Assembly (NCBI GenBank): GCA_025054615.1
Contig: JANWZO010000001.1
Location: 1 to 64,000, forward strand
Length of the DNA: 64,000 bases
DNA from: Kiritimatiellia bacterium
Lineage (GTDB): Bacteria > Verrucomicrobiota > Kiritimatiellia > CAIVKH01
Direction: 5' to 3'
Part shown: in pieces, positions 27,332-29,604 of the stretch
Position numbering within the stretch: the first letter of the stretch is position 1
Layout: the number at the start of each line of letters is the position of its first letter
Made by a program: the position numbers and the translations under genes
The notes under the pieces: model-generated
Told to the model about the DNA's origin: nothing
The model's input: only the letters and a program-made list of their open reading frames with translations
The model's database searches: none

Positions 27332-27748
27332 TCATGCCCCATGCCGATGCACGAAACGGGTCGGTATTGGCAGCTTGCTGGCCGCCAACCGCAACGACTC
27401 GCGGGCGACGGATTCCGGAACTCCATCCAACTCAAACAACATGCGTCCCGGCCGCACGACCGCGACCCAACCCTCCACAGGGCCCTTGCCCTTACCCATT
27501 CGCGTTTCCAACGGCTTTTTTGTGTACGGCTTGTCCGGAAAAACGCGAAGCCACAATTTGCCCTTTCGCTTCATCGAACGGCTGATCGCGACACGGCAGG
27601 CCTCGAGCTGGATATTCGTGATCCACGCGCGTCCGAGCGCCTGCAGCCCATATTCGCCAAAAGCCAGCGTGTTGCCGGATGCCGCGTCGCCTTTCAGGCT
27701 GCCCCTCTGCTGCTTGCGATATTTCACTCGTTTAGGCATGAGCGGCAT
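27332..27748 (-). CDS. rplP: 50S ribosomal protein L16
   Basis: 138 residues, [20 protein letters not shown] ... [20 protein letters not shown] ... [21 protein letters not shown]16 helps place tRNA in the A site. AAAGGAGG stands 6 nt before the ATG at 27748, so translation starts inside the end of rpsC with a 17-nt overlap. Confidence 0.96.
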
Positions 27749-28391
27749 GGCTCGCCTCCTTTGCCGGCTGCTCCGGCTTTCGGCAGATCCAGACCTTGAT
27801 GCCGATCTTACCCGCCACCGTGTTGGCTTCCGCGAAGCCATATTGCACATTTTCGCGGAGAGTGTGCAGCGGGACCTTGCCCTCGCGATACCCCTCCCGC
27901 CGCGCGAGCTCGGCTCCTCCAAGCCGGCCCGACGCTAGCACCCGGATGCCCAGCGCGCCGAGCTCCATCGCCATCTGAACCGCCCGTTTGAGCGCGCGGC
28001 GAAACGAGACCCGCCGCTCCAATTGCAGCGCGATATTTTCCGCAACGAGCTGCGCGTTGAGATCCGGATCTTTGATTTCCTTAATCTCCACGTAGATTTC
28101 CTTGCCCGTCATCTTCGCGATCTCCTCGCGAAGCTTCTCAAGGTCCGCGCCCTTGCGTCCGATCACGATGCCCGGACGCGCCGTGTACACCGTGATGCGA
28201 GCGCGATTCGCATAGCGCTCGATCAGGATGTCCGGAACCGCCGCCTCCTTGAGCCGGTTCTTCACCAACTCCCGGATTTTGATGTCCTCCTGGAGCAGCG
28301 GTCCAAAATTCTTCTTGTCCGCGATCCATCGGGATCGCCAGTCCTTCGTGACCGTGACGCGAAGGCCGATCGGATTGACTTTCTGTCCCAA
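27732..28391 (-). CDS. rpsC: 30S ribosomal protein S3
   Basis: 219 residues starting [20 protein letters not shown]. The KH domain motif [20 protein letters not shown] and the C-terminal domain ([31 protein letters not shown]) are present. S3 surrounds the mRNA entry and has unwinding activity with S4 and S5. It is 36 nt after rplV. Confidence 0.97.
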
Positions 28392-28427: not shown

Positions 28428-28775
28428 TTATTCTTTCTTCTTATCGCGCGCCGTCAACACAATCCTCACATGGCTCATGCGGCGCAGGATCGGGCTCGCG
28501 CTGCCGCGCGCTCGCGGCCAGTAGCGCTTCATTCGAGGGCCGTCTTCGACCACAGCGAGCTTCACCACCAGGTCGTCCGCGGATACGCCGTTGTTTGCCT
28601 CCGCGTTCGCGATGGCGGAACGGAGGGTCTTGCCGAGCCAAAACCCGGCCTTCCGCGCGTTGAAATCCGCGATGCGGAGCGCCTCGGCCACGGGCTTGCC
28701 CTGAAGGGCCCGTGCAAGGTCTCGCGCCTTCGACGGAGACATCCGCACGAATTTGCTGATTGCTGTCACTTCCAT
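28428..28775 (-). CDS. rplV: 50S ribosomal protein L22
   Basis: 115 residues, MEVTAISKFVRMSPSKARDL and a C-terminal WPRARGSASPILRRMSHVRI whose hairpin lines the exit tunnel. It normally follows rpsS directly; here a 519-nt gene for an unrelated secreted protein stands between them, ending 7 nt before this ATG. Confidence 0.97.
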   Translation of the reverse strand: MEVTAISKFVRMSPSKARDLARALQGKPVAEALRIADFNARKAGFWLGKTLRSAIANAEANNGVSADDLVVKLAVVEDGPRMKRYWPRARGSASPILRRMSHVRIVLTARDKKKE

Positions 28776-28782
28776 CTTTGCC

Positions 28783-29301
28783 TCACTCTCTCTTCATCCG
28801 CCAAACGACGGCCCGATCCCCCTGTTCGGGAAACGAGCCGCGCTCCTGCGTCTCCACCCGCGCGCCGGCGATCCGTTCACGAACCTCCACCACCCGCGCT
28901 CGGGCGATCACAACGCCGTCGCGAACAATCGCCACCGCGAGCCCCGGCCTCAGACCGTCGCGCACCCCGCCCCGAAGGGCAACCAACCCGAGCTCCCGGC
29001 TGGCGTCGACCACGGGCCAACCGTCGGGCGCCACATCGCCACCGCCCGGCTCCGCCGACGGCAACGGAGCGGTCGCAAGCGTCCACCGGTCTGCCCGCAT
29101 TTCCCCTTCGGCGAGGCGGGCCAGCAAACGGTCCCGCTCCGCCTCCAGCGCCGCGACGGTCTCGCGCAACCTCGCATTCTCCTCGGCGAGGCGCCGCGCG
29201 AGCAGCTTGGCTTCCTCGGCTGCGGGGTCCGCCGCCCGCGACAGCGGAGTGACGGCGATTAATCCGGCGATCAACCAGCCGCTCGCAGCCCATCCCCGCA
29301 T
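28783..29301 (-). CDS. Secreted coiled-coil protein inserted in the S10 gene set
   Basis: 172 residues with no relation to ribosomal proteins. It has a signal peptide (MRGWAASGWLIAGLIAVTPL, cut near SRA-AD), a heptad coiled coil (about 27-68: LARRLAEENARLRETVAALE AERDRLLARL), a proline/glycine linker, and a small beta domain (about 98-168) with ELGLVALRGGVRDGLRPGLA and GVVIARARVVEVRERIAGAR. That last part resembles SH3-like barrels found after coiled coils in other secreted proteins of PVC bacteria (recollection). It is on the same strand as the cluster, 18 nt after rpsS and 7 nt before rplV, so it must be on the ribosomal mRNA. Location is probably periplasm or envelope. Function unknown. 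Confidence 0.7.
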   Translation of the reverse strand: MRGWAASGWLIAGLIAVTPLSRAADPAAEEAKLLARRLAEENARLRETVAALEAERDRLLARLAEGEMRADRWTLATAPLPSAEPGGGDVAPDGWPVVDASRELGLVALRGGVRDGLRPGLAVAIVRDGVVIARARVVEVRERIAGARVETQERGSFPEQGDRAVVWRMKRE

Positions 29302-29319: not shown

Positions 29320-29604
29320 CTACTTCAGGGAGACCGTCTTGTCGGTCGCCGCGCCGTGCTTTCGGAACGTCCGAGTGGGCGAAAATTCGCCCAGCCGATG
29401 TCCGACCATGTTTTCCGTTATAAAAACCGTGTTGAAGGTTTTGCCGTTGTGGATCGCGAACGTATGACCCACAAACTCCGGCACAATCATCGAGCGGCGC
29501 GACCACGTCTTGATCGGCCGCTTCTGTCCGCTCTTCTCCAACTGCTCCACCTTCTTAAGCAGCTTGGCATCCACAAATGGCCCTTTGCGAATCGAGCGAC
29601 CCAT
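29320..29604 (-). CDS. rpsS: 30S ribosomal protein S19
   Basis: 94 residues: [20 protein letters not shown], then [20 protein letters not shown] and [21 protein letters not shown]19 pairs with S13 in the subunit head. It follows rplB by 3 nt. Its usual downstream neighbour rplV is displaced by a secreted-protein gene. Confidence 0.97.

Follow-up and report, generated by a model that had tools for sequence, protein, structure and literature searches.

The ribosomal protein gene rplV is very often preceded by a gene for a predicted exported barrel protein in Verrucomicrobiota

Few stretches of bacterial chromosomes are as conserved as the S10 gene set. In the window, which is the whole 64,000-nucleotide stretch of Kiritimatiellia DNA that was analysed, a gene that we call X lies within this set, between rpsS and rplV. 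The genes and features of the locus are the following:

28783..29301, minus strand: gene X, 172 aa, a predicted exported protein with a coiled coil and a FlgT_C-like barrel (open reading frame, same-place orthologues, dN/dS in Akkermansia-like copies)
29233..29301, minus strand: predicted signal peptide of X, residues 1-23 (n-region, hydrophobic stretch, SRA followed by AD)
29071..29226, minus strand: coiled-coil helix of X, residues 26-77 (AlphaFold2 helix, weak Pfam coiled-coil matches)
28804..29019, minus strand: beta-barrel domain of X, residues 95-166 (AlphaFold2 model, structure matches, residue conservation)
28781..28786, minus strand: possible rplV Shine-Dalgarno sequence, GTGAGG, overlapping the X stop codon (sequence reading)
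29320..29604, minus strand: rpsS (S19), upstream neighbour of X
28428..28775, minus strand: rplV (L22), downstream neighbour and constant partner of X in relatives

A first-pass annotation had placed a 172-residue reading frame here, and the frame is present as claimed. As the ORF is read, X starts with an ATG at 29301 on the minus strand and is separated from rpsS by 18 nt and from rplV by 7 nt. The overlap of GTGAGG with the stop codon makes translational coupling from X to rplV possible. The rpsC gene (27732-28391, minus strand) has an apparent TTG start (MGQKVNPIG...).

The occurrence of X within the window's class was determined in a set of 146 genomes. rplV was matched in 141 genomes and rpsS also in 141, with five genomes lacking a match to each. 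In 46 of the 141, representing 17 of 44 families, X is the gene immediately before rplV; it is missing beside rplV in 95, a count that takes in ten genomes where rpsS is apart from rplV and X was not seen. A first search had given X matches at E <= 1 in 40 of 58 genomes, the window genome included. At the loci from other genomes (L004-L022), rplV adjoins the match on the same strand except in L019, L021 and L022, and at the rplV-adjoining loci rpsS is found on the opposite side too, except in L016. The interval between rpsS and rplV measures 439-922 nt with X versus 9-260 nt without it. Every class interval of at least 350 nt contains X, and none of the 85 adjacent intervals that lack X exceeds 260 nt. 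X from the window shares 21-60% identity with the 16 relatives aligned first; the flanking ribosomal proteins are much more similar among relatives than X is.

Comparing this interval across relatives, as the first-pass annotation had proposed, revealed X at the same site far beyond one genome and nearly phylum-wide. The phylum sample held 194 genomes, 130 of them from other classes, and 114 of these 130 could be placed relative to rplV or rpsS (16 were left out). X stands at rplV in 78 of the 114 placed genomes and occurs in one or more genomes of 23 of the 25 families. Across Verrucomicrobiota, rplV is very often preceded by X, which is not peculiar to Kiritimatiellota and is close to phylum-wide. 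Since X is absent at rplV in the 95 class genomes and in 36 of the 114 others, it is not universally required.

Named genomes were scanned with an rplV alignment, which gave 80 loci, 41 of them with X before rplV. The X-bearing loci include records named Akkermansiaceae, Prosthecobacter, Chthoniobacteraceae, Spartobacteria, Roseibacillus, Victivallales, Lentisphaeria and Kiritimatiellota, and X is apparently at this site in Akkermansia too. The Opitutaceae and Puniceicoccaceae records among the 80 loci have no X, and their rpsS-rplV gaps are 23-79 nt. Neighbouring gaps at the same loci were used as a control. A gap of at least 300 nt occurs between rpsS and rplV in 36 of 71 cases, compared to 0 of 71 between rplB and rpsS, 3 of 78 between rplV and rpsC, and 0 of 75 between rpsC and rplP. 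A short X, consisting of signal peptide and barrel with no coiled coil, was found in families f46, f61, f64, f67 and f69 and in part of f51, with gaps of 363-448 nt; we infer that these are Opitutales-like.

Several exceptions were seen. In family f50, X is not beside rplV. Two 0.9-Mb genomes (L177 and L178), with 148 and 313 nt between rpsS and rplV, gave no X match. In f47, 10 of the 11 genomes counted as negative have an X-profile match away from rplV (for example G161 and G167), which may be a paralogue or an X that has changed place. In genome G018 (L176:4000-4800), the signal and barrel portions of X are in different reading frames, and this copy looks either frame-shifted or affected by a sequencing error.

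Selection was examined in eight Akkermansia-like copies (L153-L160), so labelled for their sequence likeness to L127 (Akkermansiaceae). All 28 pairs gave dN/dS values of 0.03-0.21, and X is under purifying selection in these genomes. X is a real protein gene. A chance ORF or annotation artefact is ruled out by the same-place orthologues together with purifying selection, and a recent insertion in a single genome is ruled out as well.

On a tree of seven ribosomal proteins from 74 loci (7 of 81 alignment rows had too few columns and were left out), the distribution of X needs 7 changes versus a shuffled mean of 25, and X occurs on both sides of the deepest split, placed by midpoint. With these counts being unrooted, the simplest reading is that X is ancestral and was then lost repeatedly. 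Paralogues of about 260-295 aa, with a membrane segment, a long coiled coil and the same C-terminal barrel, form a family that occurs in many genomes, some of them without X. Its members lie at L173:6564-7445 in the window genome, in L072 and at L174:4878-6514, and form tandem pairs in L072 and L174. In a tree of the C-terminal domain, 75 X copies split from the paralogues on one branch with an SH-aLRT of 98; this tree holds only 7 paralogues and 105 kept columns, and many of its forks are unresolved. Given that branch, independent insertion of paralogues at one site is not favoured. That X is old and largely vertically inherited in Verrucomicrobiota is part of our best explanation, to which, taken as a whole, we give an even chance.

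The neighbours of X were compared where the S10 set is split. In seven families (f12, f47, f53, f55, f56, f62 and f63) rpsS is elsewhere and X is still with rplV, at a distance of 26-158 nt in the last six. With no rpsS nearby, the distance is 3-165 nt in f59, f60, f65 and f70. The gap from X to rplV is most often 10 nt, and in some lineages it reaches 91 nt and 165 nt. In L175 the gene upstream of X is divergent, and X is the first gene of an rplV-rpsC-rplP operon.

Relatives without X have a predicted sigma-70-like promoter in 12 of 24 rpsS-rplV gaps of 80-260 nt, counting only promoter pairs equalled by at most 5 of 100 shuffles, a criterion that the other 12 gaps fail. The promoter-bearing gaps are those of L054-L059, L063-L065, L067, L085 and L090. 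In family f8, a leader of about 150 nt comes after the promoter in the gap. An Rfam search of eight loci gave no match, and the f8 loci L054 and L058 had none in Rfam either. An element of the form TGGATT-N16-TAGACT or TATAGT recurs across lineages in the approximately 100-nt gaps of L069, L078, L081, L092 and L097; taken singly, it does not beat shuffles.

Judging from these sequences, the rpsS-rplV junction is a predicted transcription-unit boundary in several lineages, with X on the rplV side. Because of the promoters in relatives without X and the operon splits, it is more accurate to link X to the rplV half of the gene set. Co-transcription of X with rplV is likely, supported by the short gaps and by L175, where X comes first in the rplV operon. 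The first-pass annotation had stated that X must share the ribosomal mRNA; sharing is likely, but "must" is too strong, and in related lineages the junction carries a predicted promoter or an operon split. X is conserved in position and strand between ribosomal protein genes, as expected of an S10-operon gene.

Next, the protein itself was considered. Residues 1-23 of the window protein read as a signal peptide, MRGWAASGWLIAGLIAVTPLSRA, followed by ADP, with cleavage placed by eye between SRA and AD. A rule of simple hydropathy only, a 13-residue stretch with a mean KD of at least 1.8 within the first 60 residues, was applied to 83 distinct X proteins (94 minus 11 identical copies). A hydrophobic stretch was found in 67 of them versus 11 of 83 shuffled sequences. 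Sixteen fall below the threshold, and seven of these are near-identical Akkermansia-like copies with signal peptides by eye. A lipobox-like motif appears in few X proteins and was given no weight. X is predicted to have an N-terminal signal or anchor.

The AlphaFold2 model of the window protein (pLDDT 86) has a helix over residues 26-77 and strands between 95 and 166, with block pLDDT of 94-98 over residues 31-70 and 91-98 over 101-170. The model of an Akkermansiaceae X (pLDDT 89) has the same strand order. The signal peptide, coiled coil and small beta domain that had been claimed are seen in the sequence and in the model. The coiled coil, present in the window protein, turned out not to be the conserved part, as it is missing from the Opitutales-like copies. 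Those copies have a signal peptide and beta domain only, so these two parts form the core of X. Across 37 alignment members, G112 and G120 of the barrel are invariant and R141 is found in 95%. Mean pairwise identity is 0.33 in the barrel versus 0.10 in tail residues 167-172, the least conserved part.

The best structural match of both models is the C-terminal domain of the flagellar ring protein FlgT (PF16538; 3w1e and 8z5n), a beta barrel. The window model matches 8z5n with a Z of 11.0 (rmsd 2.2, 78 aligned) and 3w1e with a Z of 10.8 (rmsd 2.2, 77 aligned); the Akkermansiaceae model gave 11.3 and 10.7, respectively. The N-terminal barrel of F1/V1 ATPases scores a Z of about 10 for both models (F1-ATPase 10.2), less than 1 below FlgT, which amounts to a tie. 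As modelled, the X barrel folds like the FlgT C-terminal barrel, in a fold that is shared more widely. Due to this tie, the fold alone is no pointer to a flagellar-type role. Sequence matches support the FlgT_C side over the ATPase barrel. FlgT_C is the commonest Pfam match, found for 7 of the 37 alignment members (best E 6.2e-5), and a PDB sequence search with the X profile gave TsaP (3jc8, E 2e-4) as its top match, in the TsaP C-terminal domain. The window protein itself has no FlgT_C match in Pfam at E <= 1, so no curated model places it in that family. Profile searches, which had been proposed for the C-terminal part, gave weak FlgT_C matches among relatives and no family for the window protein, which has none by sequence in Pfam, NCBIfam (E <= 0.1) or the PDB. 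Three Pfam families are listed for it at E <= 1, with weak coiled-coil family matches over the helix. In the PDB, the TsaP entry bears the name of a LysM domain protein, and X has no LysM match among those three. X also differs from FlgT in lacking the other FlgT domains and in being encoded in the S10 operon.

MreC has two beta domains. X shares with it an N-terminal membrane segment, a coiled coil and a beta barrel in the same order, which raises the question of whether X is an MreC-like or FtsB-like shape or division factor, with coiled coil and barrel acting as a periplasmic scaffold for cell-wall synthesis. Weak sequence matches point this way: NCBIfam MreC models match, in one case 3 of 17 members (best E 5.5e-4), PDB MreC matches at E 0.0017, and MreC is at Foldseek rank 22. 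We consider this role unlikely, since X has only one barrel and the Opitutales-like copies have no coiled coil. The window protein has no NCBIfam match at E <= 0.1 and a single beta domain (95-166), and the gene neighbourhood of X is different. In addition, PMC12283558 lists mreC of Verrucomicrobium spinosum as an essential gene in its own right. A small uncharacterised protein specific to PVC bacteria, the signature protein CT421.2 (PMC3444138), has a stated length of about 53 to over 80 aa; at 172 aa, X is longer.

From these features, a role for X can be proposed by analogy. X would be exported through Sec and would then be periplasmic or associated with the inner membrane, with cleavage of the signal releasing it or an N-terminal anchor retaining it. 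The coiled coil, where present, would oligomerise X and project the barrel. The barrel, as the conserved core, may dock on an envelope complex, like FlgT_C-type barrels in ring and secretin-associated proteins. Because X is directly before rplV, and is the first operon gene in some lineages, its dose would be set together with L22-S3-L16 and later ribosomal proteins, and envelope material would thereby be made in proportion to growth rate. The most likely reading, to which we give even odds, is that X acts in the envelope after export and is supplied in step with ribosome synthesis, though analogy is a weak guide to function here. Our guess is that X serves growth-linked envelope assembly rather than the ribosome, because the barrel is expected to lie outside the cytoplasm. 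The first-pass annotation had called an envelope-ribosome link uncommon. However, secY, a universal and known gene, lies in the spc operon and is a precedent, being an envelope gene within a ribosomal protein operon, as X is. Growth-linked envelope supply is the natural sense of the link, as for secY. secY is universal, whereas the search for X covered Verrucomicrobiota alone; X is also undescribed, unlike secY.

Another possible explanation is that X is one of the ordinary proteins abundant in the periplasm, kept in a strong operon for dose only and with no further tie to ribosomes or growth control. Other unrelated genes sit in ribosomal protein operons, and X can be lost with a short gap or a promoter left behind. 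This explanation is possible but clearly less probable than an envelope factor, as one exact site is held across most families of the phylum and X is with rplV even after rpsS has left.

SecM is a short exported protein encoded directly before secA. Like SecM, X would be a short exported product just upstream of a gene for protein synthesis or export. Secretion of X could control translation of rplV and later genes, with ribosome synthesis answering Sec capacity. The short distance to rplV and the possible Shine-Dalgarno sequence over the X stop codon would fit such a monitor of export. On the other hand, the tail, where an arrest motif is expected, is the least conserved part of X, and residues 167-172 hold no conserved C-terminal arrest motif. 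What is conserved instead is the folded barrel, and the gaps of up to 91 and 165 nt in some lineages also speak against it. We find this explanation very unlikely, and the envelope factor is preferred.

Literature searches found no description of gene X, which is not proof of absence. As far as the searches show, the X family and its phylum-wide site are new; the barrel fold and the presence of non-ribosomal genes in ribosomal protein operons are already known. X occurs at one S10 site in 23 of 25 sampled families outside the class and in 17 of 44 inside it, and this gives a strong clue to a function linking envelope and growth in the phylum. Transposon data and targeted mutagenesis have been published for V. 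spinosum (PMC12283558), and the role of X is directly testable there. The length of the rpsS-rplV interval can also serve as a genomic marker for operon history. More tentatively, X may be a phylum-characteristic factor with which Verrucomicrobiota match a step in envelope assembly or protein export, one that is essential or nearly so, to ribosome production; the barrel protein would be made from the L22 mRNA, and export might feed back on rplV translation.
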